Assembly: GCF_002201895.1 (NCBI RefSeq)
Contig: NZ_CP019436.1
Coordinates: forward strand, 1-64,000
Length of the DNA: 64,000 bases
Reading direction: 5' to 3'
Origin: Methanopyrus sp. SNP6
Lineage (GTDB): Archaea; JAADCQ01; Methanopyri; Methanopyrales; Methanopyraceae
The notes under the pieces are model-generated. The model did no database searches and was not told the origin of the DNA. It saw only the letters and a program-made list of their open reading frames with translations. A program made the translations under genes and the position numbers. Below are positions 46,021 through 55,603 of this stretch, piece by piece; the first letter of the stretch is position 1, and each line of letters begins with the position of its first letter.

Positions 46021-46410
46021 TTGACGTGTATGGGGGCACCCACGGTGTCCAGAAGAGCTCTGATGCCATGCATCGGTATGTCACCTAACGGATTTGTTTC
46101 CCGAGTAGCGGTCGCAGAGCTATCCGAGGAGGAAGGAGTTCCGTCGATCTGTCCGCCAGCTACCGCCGCAGGTAAGAAGAAGTTCCTAGACCTTCTAAAA
46201 CGCGTCGAAGTTTTAGTGATCGCTGGCTGTGACCATAACTGTCCCGAAAAAATATTGAAGGAGAAAGTAGGGAAGAGTCCGTCCGAAACTGTGTTCGTTT
46301 CCGAAGTATCGGAAAAAATTGGGGTGAATGCCGACAGTATGTACGAGCTCACGGAGTCGAACAGGAGACTGGCAGAAGAGGTCAAGAAAAAAGTTAAAGA
46401 ACTCCTTTGA
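46021..46410 (+). CDS. DGC-domain putative zinc-binding protein
   Basis: About 129 residues from TTG 46021 (ATG 46063, giving PCIGMSPNGFVSRVAVAEL, matches the family start better). Conserved cysteines lie in PCIGM, SICPPATAAGKKKF and VIAGCDHNCPEKIL, the last corresponding to the DGCxxxC motif for which the family is named. Members are thought to bind a metal; function unknown, sometimes adjacent to selenium or metal genes. Composition becomes AT-richer towards the 3' end. The following 210 bases contain no gene I can support. Confidence 0.7.
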   Translation: MTCMGAPTVSRRALMPCIGMSPNGFVSRVAVAELSEEEGVPSICPPATAAGKKKFLDLLKRVEVLVIAGCDHNCPEKILKEKVGKSPSETVFVSEVSEKIGVNADSMYELTESNRRLAEEVKKKVKELL

Positions 46411-46624: not shown

Positions 46625-47383
46625 CTAACGTGCGATTATCTTATCATTCATCCAGTTAATCAACACCCTCTTCTCGTCTTCGCTCAGTTCTTCGAATCTC
46701 TTAACTTCAATGTCTTCGAGGTCTTCGAGATCCTCCAACGGCACCTCTGACCCAGAATCCAAATCGTAGACGCACACTTCTGGGTTCAAGTCTTCACCTT
46801 CAAAGGTCTCAACGAAATTCTCATAGATATCCATCGCTTGATCCGGGTGGTTTTGAACCACACGGACGATAGTTCCTGCACCTAGAAGGACAGTGAACGG
46901 GTACCCGTCCCTCTCAGATCTTACGGCGCGACCAGCCACGACCGTCAAGTCGTACAGGACGCTTTCCAGCGCCTCTAGTCTAAGGGCGTCGAGAGGGTTA
47001 TCGTCGAAGACACCTTTCGGTTCCAGCCGGATTTTGTACAGCATTATAGGGACGATAATCGACCTTTGTGCTGCGTAGTTGGAGAGATACGTCCGACATA
47101 TTATCACGGATTCTATTCCCTGGACGTCGGCTCCGACTAGTCCTTTGAGGATTTCTGCTACTCCTATTCCTCCCCCTGACCCGGCGAACTGCTGCAGATC
47201 CTCGATCTTCTGAATCCAATCTGCATCCCGTAACGCCTCGTGAAGCTTTTTAACGAACGACCTCGACCTGTCCAAGACGAGTACCCTATGGTTTCTAGTG
47301 TCCAGGCCACGTAGCAGCTTTCCGAGCCTCCACGCATCATTCGACTTTATGTACAGTGGGAGCATATAGAACGTTGCTTTCAT
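46625..47383 (-). CDS. XPD-like helicase, second helicase domain as a separate protein
   Basis: 252 residues. It contains what is normally the C-terminal half of an XPD/DinG-family helicase: NHRVLVLDRSRSFVKKLHEAL (motif IV region), QGIESVIICRTYL (motif V region) and VVAGRAVRSERDGYPFTVLL, the (Q)xxGRxxR of motif VI at about 148-160. An acidic tail follows. There is no Walker A. The start overlaps the upstream ATPase-half gene by four bases (ATGA), so equimolar synthesis and assembly into one helicase is likely. AT-richer than neighbouring operon genes. Confidence 0.72.
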   Translation of the reverse strand: MKATFYMLPLYIKSNDAWRLGKLLRGLDTRNHRVLVLDRSRSFVKKLHEALRDADWIQKIEDLQQFAGSGGGIGVAEILKGLVGADVQGIESVIICRTYLSNYAAQRSIIVPIMLYKIRLEPKGVFDDNPLDALRLEALESVLYDLTVVAGRAVRSERDGYPFTVLLGAGTIVRVVQNHPDQAMDIYENFVETFEGEDLNPEVCVYDLDSGSEVPLEDLEDLEDIEVKRFEELSEDEKRVLINWMNDKIIAR

Positions 47384-48651
47384 CGTCCCATTCCCCTCCG
47401 GTTCAAATCACTCAGAGTGGGTCGGTTCTCAGCCACGAGGTATATCGCTGGAAGCTTGAAGTACTCAGGACCCATGAGTAGTTTTAATAGCTGTTCTAAG
47501 TTCTTCACGATAGGTGCGAACGTCAAAGTCGGCTTACCTGACTTGCGTGGACTTTTCACTAACACCCACTCTCTAATCCCAGCTTCATCAGATCTTTCTA
47601 TCAGTTCGTTCAGAAGTGATAAATTCTTTTTAGCATTTAAGTAGTCGGCACGACATTCTTTCTCTACCAGCTCTCGTAGTTCCATTATCCAGTCTTCGAG
47701 CTCGTACGTCAACCGTTCGTATAATTCTCGGAATTTTGTCTTCTCCTCCAGTGCTTTCTTCACTTTTCGGATATCGCGGTCCCAATCAACGACACTCCAC
47801 ATGTGAGATTGGTCTAAGGCTAGGTCGTCTAATTCCCTTTCCAGTGTGCGCGATCCGACGTATACGTACCCTGGGACCTCGACCACGAGCGTCCCGGGTA
47901 GCACGTGTGCGTCGTCCAATATCACCAGAGATCCTTCTAGCGCTTTTTCCCAGTCTTTTTCAGAAATGAAAGGTTCCTTATCCAACGCTTGGCGTGCACG
48001 ACGGTGCGACGCGTACAGGAACGGAACCGACATCAGCTTCCTGAAAGAAATACAGATTATCCTTTTCGGGTCGCATAGCTGGTCGATAATGGGGCAGTCC
48101 CTGCATGAATCCCACGGAGCGAACCCGTTGATGAACGGGTTCCCTTTGTACATGGCTTCACGGACTTTCTCCCGCAACTTCTCGTCGTTTTTAAGCACCC
48201 CCAATAGTGGACCTTCCGTTCTGTAGAACCACGGATAACACTTAGGCTCATCCTGGGCGGAACCCGCGTGCATCATGACATTGATGAGCTCCTCCTGCTC
48301 CAGTTCATCACCCAGGAGCTCCGGCAGCTTGACCTTGCATTCGTCGTAGTCCTCCACCCTGCGCCAAAGGTCGACACTGAGGTCCCATTCCCTGAACTTC
48401 TTGTACTCCCGCTCAGCCAGGTCCGGTGACGGAACGGAATAGAACACCCTTCCCCTGTACTCCCTTGCCACCCTTCGCAGCAACCAGGTTTTACCCGACC
48501 CGGGTCGCGTTGTAAGCACGGCAACGTTATCATGTTCCAACTGATCTCGGACGTCTTCCAACATCTCGTACTGCGGACCTCTCAGATCGTACTCCTCCTC
48601 TACAGCGTCTAGAGCGTCGAACAGGACATCCTTACCACCCTCGCGGCTCAA
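47380..48651 (-). CDS. XPD-like Fe-S helicase, ATPase half as a separate protein
   Basis: 423 residues. RGPQYEMLEDVRDQL (Q-motif region) and Walker A TTRPGSGKT (about 47-55) begin it, then VFYSVPSPDLAEREYKKF (motif Ia). Clustered cysteines at 105, 138, 183, 186, 193 and 200 lie where XPD holds its 4Fe-4S cluster. VILDDAHVL (about 243-251) is a DEAH-box variant with Asp for Glu. A helical arch-like region follows, and the protein ends at about where helicase domain 2 would start. It overlaps the GTPase gene before it and the domain-2 gene after it by four bases each. XPD-type helicases unwind DNA 5' to 3'. Confidence 0.75.
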   Translation of the reverse strand: MSREGGKDVLFDALDAVEEEYDLRGPQYEMLEDVRDQLEHDNVAVLTTRPGSGKTWLLRRVAREYRGRVFYSVPSPDLAEREYKKFREWDLSVDLWRRVEDYDECKVKLPELLGDELEQEELINVMMHAGSAQDEPKCYPWFYRTEGPLLGVLKNDEKLREKVREAMYKGNPFINGFAPWDSCRDCPIIDQLCDPKRIICISFRKLMSVPFLYASHRRARQALDKEPFISEKDWEKALEGSLVILDDAHVLPGTLVVEVPGYVYVGSRTLERELDDLALDQSHMWSVVDWDRDIRKVKKALEEKTKFRELYERLTYELEDWIMELRELVEKECRADYLNAKKNLSLLNELIERSDEAGIREWVLVKSPRKSGKPTLTFAPIVKNLEQLLKLLMGPEYFKLPAIYLVAENRPTLSDLNRRGMGR

Positions 48652-49700
48652 CGCGCCGCCCCCTCCACGACCCCAAGCACCGCCGGTTCGTCGCCCACGG
48701 TCACCAGGAACCGGTCGCCGGGTTCCACAACTACCTCACGGTCCAGCTCCAAGACGACGTGTGCCACGTTGTGACCCTCGGCGTAGGGTCGTATCACTTC
48801 CGTTCCTGCGTGCGTCTCGACTTCCACGAACTCGACGTTCGCGGCCGCTGAGAGCACGTGTACCTTCCCCATCGTCCCGGGCCGAACCTTGGCGCCTATC
48901 GAGAGGACTTCCGCCCTTATCCCGTCGGAGGTCGATAATCCTTCCCCGAGGCACATCCCACGTGTGATCGAGCCCTCCACCTTCAGCCTAGCCTTGAACG
49001 GTGATCCCGGTCTGAATCCGCCCGCCGACTCCACCTCCAACACTTCCGCGTTCAGCCCACCCGGCTGAACTTCGACCCACCCTTCCTCCAGCGTACCTCG
49101 ATCCACTACTCCGAACACATCAACGGTCGTCTCACCCACCCTCCGCGTGGATTCCACCGGAGCCCGCAGCGAGTCCGATTCGGACGGTCGAGGTGGTTCT
49201 TCCAGCTCGGCCAGCGCGTCGAGCAGCTCTTCCGCCCCTTCCCCGGTCTTTGCGGACACCAGGACCGGTTCTCTGACAGTTTCCACCCCGAGCAGCTCCA
49301 AAAGATCCATCACCTCGTCCGCGACCTCGGATACCCGGTTACGGTCCACCAGGTCCACCTTGTTCACGACCGGTAGTACCCTCGCCCCGTAGAATGAGAC
49401 CACGAGCGCGTGGTCGATCGTCCCTGGACACGGTCCCTCGTCGGCCGCGACCACTAGAATCGCGTAGTCCGCGCTCCATGCGGACGTCAGCATGTTACGG
49501 ATGTAGTCGCGGTGACCCGGCACGTCCACGAACGAGATCGTGGTGTCACGGAACTCCAGGAACGCGCGTGCGGGTTCTATTGTGACACCCATTTCCCGCT
49601 CATGGGGCAGCCTATCCAGCCATTCACCGGTCAACGCTTTCACGAGCGTAGTCTTCCCGTGGTTGAAATGTCCGCAGACGACTACGTTGACTACATTCAC
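48648..49700 (-). CDS. EF-Tu/SelB-like translation GTPase
   Basis: About 350 residues from GTG 49700 (GGAGGG seven bases upstream). G1 is CGHFNHGKTTL, switch I EMGVTIEPA, G3 VDVPGHRDYIRNM, G4 NKVDLVD and G5 VSAKTG. Two beta-barrel domains follow, ending in LELDREVVVEPGDRFLVTV. A threonine-containing switch I (GVTI) and the barrels place it with EF-Tu, IF2-gamma and SelB. SelB is attractive because selD and a SECIS are in this window, and the archaeal SelB C-terminus has a similar EVGDRVLIT element. However, it is shorter than typical archaeal SelB and could be another EF-Tu paralogue. It lies inside the operon between the exported CobN-like gene and the split helicase. Confidence 0.65.
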   Translation of the reverse strand: MNVVNVVVCGHFNHGKTTLVKALTGEWLDRLPHEREMGVTIEPARAFLEFRDTTISFVDVPGHRDYIRNMLTSAWSADYAILVVAADEGPCPGTIDHALVVSFYGARVLPVVNKVDLVDRNRVSEVADEVMDLLELLGVETVREPVLVSAKTGEGAEELLDALAELEEPPRPSESDSLRAPVESTRRVGETTVDVFGVVDRGTLEEGWVEVQPGGLNAEVLEVESAGGFRPGSPFKARLKVEGSITRGMCLGEGLSTSDGIRAEVLSIGAKVRPGTMGKVHVLSAAANVEFVEVETHAGTEVIRPYAEGHNVAHVVLELDREVVVEPGDRFLVTVGDEPAVLGVVEGAAR

Positions 49701-49768
49701 ATCGCCACCCTCCAGCCGCTCCGCGCTCGCTTCCGTGCGGTTAGCTCCGGGGATCACCTCCTATTTAT

Positions 49769-52700
49769 TCACCACCCCCTAGGATCCGGTTCGTAACGCT
49801 TCGCCCACCATACGGCTAGGAAGAAGCTCACGAGTAACGTCAGTGCCAGCAACCACCTCGGGAAGTAGGATGTCGGGGTCGCCTGATACTCCCGCGTCAG
49901 CACTCTCCCGCTCATCGCGACGGTCGACCCGACACCCTTTCCGGTTCCGGCGACTTTATCCGCAACACCTTCTAGGGACACTCCTACCCCGGTGTGCCCC
50001 AACGACTTCGGACTTACCCCAGTCCCAGTCGCCATCGCGACACGCGAGACTGTGGCCACAACCTGGGAAATCACAGGTGTCATATGAACCGCAGTTGTCA
50101 CATGGACGGTTGGTCTGAGCACCGGACGCGTCATCGGCGCGGTCCTGGATACCGGGGTAGCAGTCTCTACCGCCATCCTCTCGACGATTCCGGACTGGAA
50201 GGCGCAGAGTTCTGGGCAACAGCAGGCCACTGAAGCGATCCAGGATAACGCCTCTCGCGGGTAGGGGATGCTCAGATCGGTCGAGATTCTGACGAGCGAG
50301 AACGCGGCCGAAGCTAGGGCCGTCGGCACCGACGCTAACCAGTCTGCGTTGGCTTTGACTATGGACCAGACGGTCGGGAGGACAGTTGCGAAGTCGCGCC
50401 GCCCTACCGCGACGTACCCGAGGGTCGCGAACCGCTTGAGCGAGCGCAACAGGTATAGGGCGCCCGAAGCACCGAACCGACGGAGTCCGGTGGTAAAGCT
50501 CCTGTTATACAACGTCCTAAGCAGACTCCGCATGAGATACGCCCGAGTTGTGACCAACGGACCCGAACCACGATCGATCTTCCTCGCCGTCACTCTCAAG
50601 TCGTTCACAGCGCGGAGGAGGGCCTCACTCCACCCGACGAGCCTCGCGAGGCGGCCCGCACCCTTGGCAACGTTCCAGCCAGGTTTGAAGGCGCCGAGGT
50701 CGACCTTCGAGACGTCGAGCGTCCACCCTCTGACGGAATTCTCACGGAGCAGGTAATCCAGGAGCGCCCTCGCCGACGCCTCGAGGTTGACGGTGCAACC
50801 GCAGCAGAAGAGGTTCGAGTAATCGTCGTACGAGTCGAACACCTGCAGGACCGCGTCCGAGGTGACGACAGCCAAGGCTAGTGCGAGCGGACAGTGTAGG
50901 AACGGCTGCCGCATTCCCACGAGCTCCGATCGCACATACGGGAGGACTGTGTACGAGAACCCGACGAGCGTCCGGAGCCCTAGGGACTCTACACTGTCAC
51001 TCGTGTACATGCCGGCCTCGATCATCGGGAGTACCGGCGCTATGAACTCACCCGGACACTGCGTGAAGACCGCGGCGCCTGCCATCACCGGAACGTTATC
51101 CCACGTCAGCTCCCCGAGGAGCCAGTCGGGGAGCCTATCCTTCAACGCCTCCCGTAGGACCAAGTATGAGACGGCCCAGTGCAGGAACGGAGCGTTTCGG
51201 GACGGTAGAATCCACAGGCCGGTACCGATAGCAACCGACCACAGGAGCTCCGCCAGGTTCCACCCGACCAAGTCTCGAAGACCGACGACGACGTAGTCGT
51301 TCAGCTCCTTAAGCCCCTCGTGTAGTTCGTGGAGCGTACCCAGCGGATCGCGCTCCAGCTTCGTCATGACGTCATCGAGGAGCTTCCTGAGGACTTCAGG
51401 GACACACCCCCGATCCCGAAGTCTCTCTTTCACCTCCTCCAACGATCTCTCGAGTGCCTCGAGCACGTCTCTTAGAACATCCCATCGCCCCGCACCGTGA
51501 GGCCTCGCGGTCGGTGAGAGGTACGAGCGTTCACCGATGGCCAGGGCGACCCACGGTTCCGCCGCGACCACGTCCAGCATGCGGCACATGTTGACCAGCG
51601 AGAGCGCGGACGGGCTGATCCCCTGGAACGTCGCCCCCGACACTAGCAATAGGACATCTTTCCTGACCCTGGGTAAATCGAGTACCTCGATTCCCACGAT
51701 CCGGACCGTCCGGAGATCGAACGTCAACTCACCTACAACGACTACTCTCTCTCCGATGCGTAGGTTCACTGGATACCTGAACGTGACGGTGATGCTCGCG
51801 CTCGGATCGTACTCGGATCGGAGGACGATGGTGTGGTCGTTCAGAACCTGCTTCACGATCCCGCTCACGCACGCACTCGTACCTCCGCATACGGTGGGTA
51901 TTGCGACGAGGTCGGCCACGTCTACGACGTCCTCCTCGCTGTACGATATCACGAGGTCCGAGCACAGCAGGCGCACGTTCTCGGCCTCGAAATCTGGGAT
52001 ACCGAGCACGACGAGCTCCTGGCCCACGCTCACCAGGGTTCCTTCCGGGAGCACGATTTCAACGCGGGCCGTGCCATCGTCCACCACGGCCGTTAGTGAC
52101 CTGCCTGAGTACCGGACTTCCGTGACCCGACCGCGAACCAGGAGGGTCTGGACGGGTACGTTCGGGTGTCGGACGTGCACGAGCGGTAGTTCCCAAGGGA
52201 GGACGCCGATTACCTCACCGGTTAGGTTCGTCCTGCATGAGGTCCGACCCGTCGTCGTGGGAGTATAGCTCCTGAAAGAGGTCTTCACAGGCACGTAACC
52301 GAGTAATTCCAGGGCGAGCGCGTACTGGAGGCCGCCAGTGGCTAAATCGGTCGGCCCCATCACCATGATCACACGATCCTCCGTACGCCGGTACAGTTCA
52401 GTCGCGACCACCGACGACACGGAGACGGCAGTTTCGTCAGGGAACCTCCGCGTATCGTAAGCGCAGGTATTCCTCCCGGTCGGGGCGACGTAGACGTATC
52501 GAAGCGGTGAGCCGCCGAATCCCGGGCGTATGTACTCCGCGTGCAGTGCTTTGAGGAGGTTCTCGATCTCGTACTTAGCACTGAGCAGAAACCTTCTGAG
52601 CACTTCGCGGGCCAAGTGTGAGGTCTCGTCGCAGTCCCTCCCTGCCCACACTGCCTCCCAATTTATGCTTATCTTCCTCCACAACGCCCGTCGTAGGGCG

Positions 52701-55603
52701 AGCTCGACCATGCATTCGAGCGAGTGGAACGGGTCCTCAGGGTCGATCGATGGCAGGCCGTACACGTGTAACCCACACATTCCCGATTCTTCCTCGACCT
52801 CCCTTAGGAACTCGTACAATAGACTCGCACACCGGTCAAAGTCCCGCTCGAATTCCTCGAGATCGTTCGCGACTGCCGCGTACAGTCCCGTGGATCGAAC
52901 TAGTTCGAGAATCGCGTCTCGGAGCGCGGGTGACCGTGACTGCAAGTACTTCTCCAGCGTCTCGATCAATCGCTCTACCTCAGGATCGAATCGGACCTCG
53001 TTTCTGGGCGCTGGGAAGTAACCGAGGACGATCGCGCCAAGCCGGCGCCTGGCCGTGACGCAGCCGGTCGGATCCCCCACGTGGTACAAGCAGACGATAG
53101 GGGTACCGTCGGATAGGACTATGGGGAATTCCCAGCCGAGTGGAAGGATCGGTTTCAACGGAGTCCACTCGAGGTTACCGCGGCTTCCGATCCTAATTAC
53201 CGCGTCCGCGTCGAACTTCCGCATGAGGTAGTACCAGAACGCCAGGTAGAGATGAGTGGGCGGGAGCACGACCGTCCGGAGCTCCGCCTCGGACTTCATC
53301 CGCAACAGAGGCGGTTCTGGAAGTACGATAATGTTTCCGAATTTCATTCCTGGTATCGGAAACGCGCGAACCCCATCCACGATCCTCAGGAACGGGGATT
53401 TCTCGGGCGGACCCCACCCGAAGAGCCCGCCCAGCTCGTCCAACCGATCACTCCACTCCTCCCACAACCCGTCCAACTCGCGCAGCACGTCCTCCTTGTC
53501 CAGCTGGCGACCTAACGCGATATCGACGAGCAGGTCTGTCACCTCCGCGAAGACATCCCGTAACCTATCCACCAGAGCCTTTCGGGCCTCATCATCGAGA
53601 TCCAACAGGTTCAGGCACGAGATCGCGGTGTCCATCAGCGCCTTCATCCTTACCCGGAGGAACTCGAGGTGGCGTTTGTCGGGAGGTAATTCCCCGTGGT
53701 CAGCCCGCTCGACGAGATACCTGAGGTATCCTAGTATCCCCCGTTCTACGTACAGTCGAGTGGGTTCGGGGAGAGAGTGATACCACTCGAGGTATTCGTC
53801 GAGGGTAACCTTGTCGAGGAGTAGTAACTCGACCTCGTGCGCCCGACCACTCATTCGCTCGACAAACCGGTTTAGACCGGTGTGGAGGGGCGGGGTCCTC
53901 ACGTACGGGCCCACGTGATAAGCTTTGGACAAGTACTCACGATAGAATTGGTCCGATAGCCCTAGCAGCACATTCATTGCATCACGGAAGATCTCGACTG
54001 CCCGACGGAAATCACCTAGCTCGAGAAGTTCCCACGCCTCTCGGTCCAACTCGACAACCCGGTGTAGCACCTCGTCCCACGGTGTGCGGACCGAGTACCT
54101 ATTCTCGCGCAGCCAAGCCAGGATGTGTAACACGCTCGCGGGCACGTCCAATTGATCAGCTACCGCTACGAAGTCCCGACCGAAGGTGTCGACGCCGTAC
54201 ACCAATGCCACTCTCTTCTCACGGTTGGGAGCCTCACGCAACCGGCGGAGCTTCTCGACTAGGCGGACGACGGCGTCGATCGTTTCCTCGACCGCGCTAC
54301 CGCTGATTCGGAGTACTCCACCTGGGACGTGTCGGGCGAGCCCCGGTGGTAACCTGACAACGCGCGATGTCCCGACGAGGAACGGACCTAGGAAGCCGAG
54401 GTTCTCCGGTACGATCACGTTGAACACCATGTAATGGTCGGCAGCGCGCTCGGACATGTACAGGCATTCCCACTGCAGCTTAGTCATGCCCATGTGGTTG
54501 CTATCCAAGCCGATCACCGGGACGTTCAGCCGCTCGAACAGTCTCACGAGCCGGCTGTCGGGACCGTAGTACCGCATCATACTGTGGTTGACAGCCCACA
54601 TGATACATACAGTATGCTCTTCCTCGATTAGCGGCTCCAGTGCCTTGAGAAGTTCTTCGGGTAGCATGTACAGGATGTCGTAGTGCAGGGCGATGGGCAC
54701 CACGTTGTACCCGCGTTCGTGGAGCTTCCCTGCAAGCACCTTCAACCAGTCGAGGTAGCCGAGGTGTCGGCCCAAGAGGTTGGCCGAGTCGAAGACGACG
54801 AACACTGTCGGGGCTCTCGAGGAGTAGAAACCTTTCGACTCACCCAGTTTCCGGTAGCGGTCGAAGATCTCGTGAAGCCTGGGAAGGACCTCGCCGCGGA
54901 TCAGCTCCACGAACCACCGTGGGTACACGGTGATACCGTGGTAGCTGGATAGTACCTCGCCGTGTGGGAACTCGCGCTGGTACCTCAGGATCACGATCGG
55001 ATCGACGGGATGGTCGTAGGAGACCACGGTATCAGTGAGCGGGTCGTACAGGGACAGCAAACCGTCGAGGTAGAACGCTCTGGGTGGTTCTCCACTTCCC
55101 ACGTACCTGAAGAACTGAACCAGGTTACGCTCGGAGAGCGTAGTTAGGAACATGTAAAGTGGGATCTCGGTGCCCCCTACGTCCACCGTGCGGTCCACCA
55201 GCGGTACCATTTCGGCCTTGGCCGAACCGATCGGGATGTTGATGTCGTTCTGATACACATAGAATGGGACACCGCGCGACAGGGCCTCAGCTAGAGCCGC
55301 GTACTCCGGCGCCGAGTACGGGTCCAACACCGTCAGTCCTGACGATCGATATAGTATCACGGCCGAAGCGTTCCGGATGCGCTCGCAGGTTTCTTCCCTC
55401 ACCTCCTCGAGGTTCGCACCTACGATGAGGGAGTCGTACGAACGCGGGTCGATGGCGAGGAAGTCCACTCCGGACTTCGATAACGGTTCTATGAACTGAC
55501 CGGCGTAACGTGAGATAACTACCACCTCACCGCAAGAAACCGGTACGAACGAAGTAAAGGCTGTGATGAGTAATAGCGAGAGAATTAGGGGGGGACACGG
55601 CAC
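49769..55603 (-). CDS. Exported, membrane-anchored CobN-like protein with OB insertion
   Basis: 1944 residues. A signal peptide (about 1-25) and a C-terminal membrane helix (about 1912-1935, WLLALTLLVSFFLAVWW) put the body outside the cell, after a Thr/Val-rich stalk (about 1780-1900). The body follows the CobN/chelatase H-subunit fold: CGLHVYG near 944, LHAEYIRPGFGG and APTGRNTC near 1040, then LLLVSGATFQGISPSAL. Where the cytoplasmic CobN of this window has HFGTHG, this protein has RIGSRG (about 803), so the metal-site histidines are gone. A beta-rich, OB-like segment (about 1150-1305, for example VLVRGRVTEVRYSGRSL) is inserted in the chelatase domain. Cysteines are numerous near 1600 (FCCGC). 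Start GTG 55603, GAGGGGGG upstream. It sits 14 bases after the toroid gene. Confidence 0.8.
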   Translation of the reverse strand: MPCPPLILSLLLITAFTSFVPVSCGEVVVISRYAGQFIEPLSKSGVDFLAIDPRSYDSLIVGANLEEVREETCERIRNASAVILYRSSGLTVLDPYSAPEYAALAEALSRGVPFYVYQNDINIPIGSAKAEMVPLVDRTVDVGGTEIPLYMFLTTLSERNLVQFFRYVGSGEPPRAFYLDGLLSLYDPLTDTVVSYDHPVDPIVILRYQREFPHGEVLSSYHGITVYPRWFVELIRGEVLPRLHEIFDRYRKLGESKGFYSSRAPTVFVVFDSANLLGRHLGYLDWLKVLAGKLHERGYNVVPIALHYDILYMLPEELLKALEPLIEEEHTVCIMWAVNHSMMRYYGPDSRLVRLFERLNVPVIGLDSNHMGMTKLQWECLYMSERAADHYMVFNVIVPENLGFLGPFLVGTSRVVRLPPGLARHVPGGVLRISGSAVEETIDAVVRLVEKLRRLREAPNREKRVALVYGVDTFGRDFVAVADQLDVPASVLHILAWLRENRYSVRTPWDEVLHRVVELDREAWELLELGDFRRAVEIFRDAMNVLLGLSDQFYREYLSKAYHVGPYVRTPPLHTGLNRFVERMSGRAHEVELLLLDKVTLDEYLEWYHSLPEPTRLYVERGILGYLRYLVERADHGELPPDKRHLEFLRVRMKALMDTAISCLNLLDLDDEARKALVDRLRDVFAEVTDLLVDIALGRQLDKEDVLRELDGLWEEWSDRLDELGGLFGWGPPEKSPFLRIVDGVRAFPIPGMKFGNIIVLPEPPLLRMKSEAELRTVVLPPTHLYLAFWYYLMRKFDADAVIRIGSRGNLEWTPLKPILPLGWEFPIVLSDGTPIVCLYHVGDPTGCVTARRRLGAIVLGYFPAPRNEVRFDPEVERLIETLEKYLQSRSPALRDAILELVRSTGLYAAVANDLEEFERDFDRCASLLYEFLREVEEESGMCGLHVYGLPSIDPEDPFHSLECMVELALRRALWRKISINWEAVWAGRDCDETSHLAREVLRRFLLSAKYEIENLLKALHAEYIRPGFGGSPLRYVYVAPTGRNTCAYDTRRFPDETAVSVSSVVATELYRRTEDRVIMVMGPTDLATGGLQYALALELLGYVPVKTSFRSYTPTTTGRTSCRTNLTGEVIGVLPWELPLVHVRHPNVPVQTLLVRGRVTEVRYSGRSLTAVVDDGTARVEIVLPEGTLVSVGQELVVLGIPDFEAENVRLLCSDLVISYSEEDVVDVADLVAIPTVCGGTSACVSGIVKQVLNDHTIVLRSEYDPSASITVTFRYPVNLRIGERVVVVGELTFDLRTVRIVGIEVLDLPRVRKDVLLLVSGATFQGISPSALSLVNMCRMLDVVAAEPWVALAIGERSYLSPTARPHGAGRWDVLRDVLEALERSLEEVKERLRDRGCVPEVLRKLLDDVMTKLERDPLGTLHELHEGLKELNDYVVVGLRDLVGWNLAELLWSVAIGTGLWILPSRNAPFLHWAVSYLVLREALKDRLPDWLLGELTWDNVPVMAGAAVFTQCPGEFIAPVLPMIEAGMYTSDSVESLGLRTLVGFSYTVLPYVRSELVGMRQPFLHCPLALALAVVTSDAVLQVFDSYDDYSNLFCCGCTVNLEASARALLDYLLRENSVRGWTLDVSKVDLGAFKPGWNVAKGAGRLARLVGWSEALLRAVNDLRVTARKIDRGSGPLVTTRAYLMRSLLRTLYNRSFTTGLRRFGASGALYLLRSLKRFATLGYVAVGRRDFATVLPTVWSIVKANADWLASVPTALASAAFSLVRISTDLSIPYPREALSWIASVACCCPELCAFQSGIVERMAVETATPVSRTAPMTRPVLRPTVHVTTAVHMTPVISQVVATVSRVAMATGTGVSPKSLGHTGVGVSLEGVADKVAGTGKGVGSTVAMSGRVLTREYQATPTSYFPRWLLALTLLVSFFLAVWWAKRYEPDPRGW

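Follow-up and report, generated by a model that had tools for sequence, protein, structure and literature searches.

The locus

The window analysed here comprises the first 64 kb of the one-contig genome of Methanopyrus sp. SNP6 (1,421,521 bases), labelled G000 among the five genomes of this genus (G000 to G004) compared below. Methanopyrus is a methane-making archaeon that lives at very high temperature. Two consecutive genes on the minus strand, the products of which are called chain A and chain B, carry strings resembling the motifs of XPD/DinG-type helicases, distributed between the chains as listed in Table 1. Both open reading frames, noticed in an earlier sequence-only reading of this DNA, are present on that strand, as is the ATGA by which they overlap.

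Table 1. Features of the chain A/chain B locus (positions in the window)
Feature	Position	Strand	Remarks
Chain A, XPD/DinG-like motor domain 1	47380..48651	-	423 aa, TTG start; Cys-rich insertion and arch-sized insertion
Chain B, putative motor domain 2	46625..47383	-	252 aa, ATG start
ATGA, stop of A shared with start of B	47380..47383	-	
GGAGGGG, Shine-Dalgarno-like site for B, within the 3' end of A	47393..47399	-	
Motif I (Walker A) TRPGSGKT, chain A residues 48-55	48487..48510	-	sequence
Cysteine region of A: C105, C138, C183, C186	48094..48339	-	invariant in 6/6 rows
Motif II DDAH, chain A residues 246-249	47905..47916	-	
NRPTL at the motif III place, chain A residues 409-413; split directly after	47413..47427	-	
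Motif V-like GLVGADVQG, chain B residues 81-89	47117..47143	-	
Motif VI-like VAGRAVR, chain B residues 149-155	46919..46939	-	

The Walker A string and the DDAH box are both found in the gene for chain A, as had been claimed. The cysteine cluster attributed to this chain holds for four invariant residues, C105, C138, C183 and C186, whereas cysteines 193 and 199 are not invariant. The first chain had also been said to stop before helicase domain 2. Chain A ends 14 residues past the start of 'RPTL' at the motif III position and thus does not contain that domain. The second gene does contain the two strings assigned to it, one like motif V and one like the GRxxR of motif VI, separated by 67 residues.

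Relationship of chain A to XPD and DinG

The profile search of both halves that the sequence-only reading had proposed identified chain A as XPD/DinG-like and did not identify chain B by itself. In a single hhalign comparison, the chain A profile (6 rows) matched an alignment of 30 archaeal XPDs, namely the sequences with loci out of 80 DEAD_2 matches, with a probability of 97.7 and an E-value of 2.5e-12 over 193 columns. The aligned stretch begins at the Q-like region and extends through Walker A, motif Ia and the cysteines to the DEAH box. The score of this alignment is 99.1, while the best of 60 column shuffles reached 25.3. Profiles of unrelated P-loop families used as controls gave probabilities of 70 and 93 against chain A, which are below the XPD value; these control groups are not clean helicase families, one consisting of AAA proteins and one mostly of another P-loop family. 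The best PADLOC match of chain A is typeIV_DinG (E 8.1e-5), and the same is true for chain A of G004 (E 1.1e-4). Pfam returned P-loop matches for chain A of the window, all of them below threshold, and ResIII above the cut-off for chain A of G004; in all five genomes, chain A is without a DEAD_2 match.

An AlphaFold model of chain A (5 rows) has a pLDDT of 66 and a pTM of 0.64. Its top match in the PDB is CasDinG (7xf0), with an E-value of 0.015 that is not significant alone. In BFVD, one of the three matches with E below 0.001 is a viral (phage) 'DinG Rad3-related' protein (E 2.1e-4). VIA-align found general SF2 or AAA folds with Z-scores of up to 6.8, which are not decisive, and aligned 284 residues (Z 5.8) with chain 7, presumably XPD, of the TFIID holo-PIC structure 7egb. 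Chain A is a divergent motor domain 1 of the XPD/DinG type.

The four invariant cysteines lie between motifs Ia and II in all six rows of the family alignment. The XPDs have four columns in which each of the 30 sequences carries a cysteine, and the spacing in chain A differs from theirs. C105 and C138 correspond to XPD cysteines one and three, the fourth XPD cysteine is placed close to C183/C186, the second is without a counterpart, and C183 is extra. As four cysteines remain, an iron-sulfur cluster on chain A is possible, and the insertion that contains them is a likely binding site for a [4Fe-4S] cluster.

Conservation of the split in the genus

Among 61 genomes searched, both halves were found as separate genes in all five genomes of the genus. 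The split falls at an identical site in each, just past motif III. The recurrence of both halves throughout the genus shows that the pair is not a chance arrangement. The search for the same split in related genomes, which had been suggested as a check, therefore finds it at the same domain border in 5/5. Relative to the window proteins, chain A is 82% identical in G001, 58% in G003, 57% in G002 and 59% in G004, and the corresponding values for chain B are 78%, 59%, 62% and 57%. The dN/dS ratios of the split orthologues are 0.09-0.42 for chain A and 0.07-0.31 for chain B, calculated for the 16 of 20 pairs with unsaturated dS; the four saturated pairs were left out of these ranges. Purifying selection acts on both halves.

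Both halves are open in four of the five genomes. Compared with G003, the G002 copy (L068:8629-10678) is interrupted by a frame-breaking gap of 1 nt in A and another of 2 nt in B, and the two genes next to it have a single 9-nt, in-frame gap in the same comparison. The G002 frame breaks may represent either decay or an assembly error. Because of them, the G002 sequence is included only in part in the family alignments A1 and A2, its pieces having been left unjoined.

A four-base overlap of stop and start is present in three genomes (ATGA in G000, GTGA in G001 and TTGA in G004). There is no overlap in G002, which has a gap of 25 nt between stop and start, or in G003, where the gap is 6 nt and both genes are in the same frame. 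The sequence-only reading had argued from the clean four-base overlap that a two-subunit enzyme is being maintained rather than decaying. The maintenance is supported by the genus-wide split and by purifying selection, but the overlap argument itself is weak, since the overlap is not kept in two of the five genomes.

Pattern searches of genome contigs, viral contigs and phage records found no relatives of chains A and B outside the genus; one such search gave three loci, every one of which came from same-genus genomes already counted. A profile search of 394 genomes gave no more than weak matches outside the genus, mostly in the Walker A region, and one extra match to the chain B profile. The weak matches inspected included AAA or other P-loop frames and what appears to be a methionyl-tRNA-synthetase-like frame. 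No description of the pair was found in the literature, as judged by titles and the openings of abstracts.

A one-frame paralogue and the assignment of chain B

G001 has a second, distant copy of the pair in a single open frame of 723 aa. Counted from the methionine beside the Walker motif, this fused paralogue (L031:8576-10492, minus strand) is 639 aa long and spans chain A from the Walker motif onward, followed by chain B, with identities of 30% to A and 34% to B. GKS, DDAH and all four cysteines are retained, but motif VI is altered to GRTAQ, in which the GR is kept and the second arginine is lost, and the protein is short at its N-terminus. No significant Pfam assignment was obtained for it, and it was not found in the other four genomes of the genus. 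The existence of a paralogue of A plus B in one frame shows that both halves correspond to one protein.

Chain B belongs to no family in Pfam or NCBIfam, and Helicase_C_2 does not match at its locus. Helicase_C_2 does match in all five genomes, each time below the cut-off and at another locus; in the window genome this match sits in a 959-aa frame, which presumably encodes an Lhr-type helicase. An hhalign comparison of chain B with XPD domain 2 gave a p-value of 0.0042 over 21 columns around motif VI, which is not significant: two of 400 shuffles equalled the score, and chain A, used as the negative control, scored higher. The structure model of chain B has a pLDDT of 34 and no usable fold.

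The distances between motifs were compared with those of 19 of the 30 XPDs, the other 11 being without one of the strict motif strings. The interval between motifs II and III is 163-167 residues in the split rows and 152-174 in the XPDs, and that between V and VI is 65-67 and 58-60, respectively. The I-II interval (194-222 as against 160-189) and the III-V interval (about 97 in the window as against 125-139) fit less well. When A and B are joined and the profile alignment is forced from end to end, motifs V and VI of XPD land on those of chain B. G151 and R152 of motif VI are invariant. Chain B is thus regarded as a putative motor domain 2 on account of its fusion to A in the paralogue, its XPD-like motif spacing and its GRxxR, and not of a profile match.

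Translation of the pair

The Shine-Dalgarno-like pairing upstream of B was evaluated by duplex energies calculated with an assumed anti-Shine-Dalgarno sequence. In the window it amounts to -10.6 kcal/mol, and 3.0% of background 20-mers are as strong or stronger. The strongest pairing is that of G004 (-14.8 kcal/mol), which no background 20-mer equals; in G001, G002 and G003 the pairing is not distinct from background. Coupling of the translation of B to that of A is likely.

Alternative explanations

The two frames might be joined into one fused chain by recoding, that is, by frameshifting or by read-through of TGA. Methanopyrus uses selenocysteine, TGA is the stop codon of A in all five genomes, three of them have the four-base overlap, the two genes of G003 are in the same frame with a TGA between them, and a fused paralogue exists. 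Against this, the relative frame of the two genes varies (offsets of 2, 2, 1, 0 and 2 in the five genomes), the stretch that separates the halves shows no conservation, and read-through of the TGA in the window meets another stop after 10 codons. Chain B also has a Shine-Dalgarno-like site of its own, which pairs strongly in G004 and well in the window, if not above background in G003. Joining by selenocysteine insertion or other read-through was rejected because of the differing frames, and recoding as a whole is very improbable. There is even less reason to believe that the gene is broken and decaying, the split being due to a nonsense or frameshift mutation that became fixed and the halves being remnants of the gene. 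The frame breaks of G002, which affect both halves, would agree with such a history, but the split lies at one domain border throughout the genus, both halves are open in the other four genomes, their dN/dS ratios are well below 1, and both retain 57-82% identity to the window proteins.

It is also conceivable, albeit unlikely, that chain A is an XPD-like domain 1 with a lost or changed motor function, for instance a DNA-binding iron-sulfur ATPase, and that its co-evolved partner, chain B, is not a true RecA-like domain. In favour of this, chain B yielded neither a significant profile match nor a fold, and motifs III and V are altered. This explanation does not readily accommodate the GRxxR of chain B at XPD-like spacing, the invariance of G151 and R152, the register of B with motifs V and VI of XPD in the forced alignment of the joined chains, or the fusion of B to A in the paralogue.

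A possible two-chain XPD-like helicase

Canonical XPD, recognized by DEAD_2, was sought in the five Methanopyrus genomes and found in none of them. DEAD_2 is present in 68 of the 101 genomes searched, which include these five, and 79 of its 80 matches lie in single open frames of at least 559 aa. In a 2006 survey, the table entry for M. kandleri contains phr, XPB, XPF and FEN-1 but no XPD, and the same table is also without XPD for M. jannaschii and Sulfolobus species (PMC1590041). The pair is regarded as a probable two-chain XPD-like ATPase or helicase. It may represent the XPD missed by earlier surveys of this lineage and can be put forward as a candidate for that absent protein.

It is probable that the pair constitutes a strongly diverged iron-sulfur SF2 helicase of the XPD/DinG type, with each of its two RecA-like motor domains produced as a chain of its own. 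Of these, chain A would carry motor domain 1 with motifs I, Ia and II and the motif III-like NRPTL, as well as the putative [4Fe-4S] four-cysteine insertion and an arch-sized insertion, and chain B would carry motor domain 2 with motifs IV-VI. The two proteins would probably be made from one message, the translation of B being coupled to that of A or closely following it. They are then expected to form an obligate heterodimer with ATP bound at the chain interface, where the motif VI arginine of B would complete the ATP site located on A. The assembled enzyme would work like XPD or DinG, hydrolysing ATP in a DNA-dependent manner as it travels along DNA and opens it, and may stand in for the XPD that Methanopyrus otherwise lacks, which would give it a role in repair. 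A more specific proposal is tentative, at somewhat worse than an even chance: the pair would be the XPD of Methanopyrus, hitherto unrecognised as such and an obligate heterodimer, with the ATP site of this iron-sulfur helicase formed between separate chains. If this is true, control could be exerted through motor assembly itself, and a one-frame sister protein is available for comparison in one species. The pair would be a natural two-chain iron-sulfur helicase split between its motor domains, so that the contribution of each domain could be tested by mixing.

Comparison with related systems

Motifs I, II, III, V and VI follow one another in the pair as they do in archaeal XPD (Rad3), at roughly similar distances, and chain A shares with that protein the cysteine insertion between motifs Ia and II and an insertion the size of the arch between II and III. 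Unlike archaeal XPD, the pair consists of two chains, its cysteines are differently spaced, it has NRPTL in place of SAT and GAD in place of EGxD, and its scores are too low for DEAD_2 or Helicase_C_2. DinG, and in particular CasDinG of type IV-A CRISPR systems, is the best PADLOC match and the best PDB fold match (E 0.015) of chain A. The pair differs from these proteins in having two chains and no repeat array nearby: a search for a CRISPR array found no direct-repeat families at window positions 36000-58000.

The Large helicase-related protein is an SF2 protein. In Nanoarchaeota this helicase is encoded in two genes (PMC3655853, Table 1); it belongs to another family than A and B, and the locus numbers given there, NEQ 003-409, suggest that the split genes are far apart and not overlapping, unlike those of the present pair. 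Reverse gyrase of M. kandleri, a helicase-containing enzyme, is likewise described as made of two polypeptides (PMC8185306). It comes from the same genus as A and B but is of another family, and according to that description its split is not at a domain border, unlike that of A and B. With the precedents described in these two sources, split archaeal helicases are already known, and A/B would be another such case. The pair adds to the split DNA-handling enzymes of the genus, of which reverse gyrase is one.

Genomic neighbourhood

In the window and in G001, genes for a SelB-like GTPase and a giant CobN-like protein precede the pair. Directly after the pair, G002 and G003 have QRPTase and RIO-kinase genes, and the best match to the GTPase lies about 96 kb from the pair on the same contig in G002 and on a different contig in G003. 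In G004, a Helicase_C protein is encoded upstream of A. The genes 3' of B are the more stable neighbours, which makes the CobN operon a local arrangement. The position of the pair at the end of that operon had been called unexplained in the sequence-only reading; this puzzle dissolves, as the GTPase and CobN neighbours are common only to the window and its closest relative, G001.

Several features of the neighbouring genes were observed in passing. The SelB-like GTPase (48648-49757, minus strand; also L093) has 369 aa, which is short for SelB. It is matched in all five genomes and adjoins the pair only in G000 and G001, and its best match in G004 contains one in-frame TGA. The CobN-like protein of 1944 aa (49769-55603, minus strand) has a weak match to the OB-fold PF01336, below the cut-off, at residues 1156-1206, in or beside the chelatase region. 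On the other side of the pair, B and the QRPTase gene of the window are separated by a DGC-domain gene (46021-46410), which is encoded on the opposite (plus) strand.
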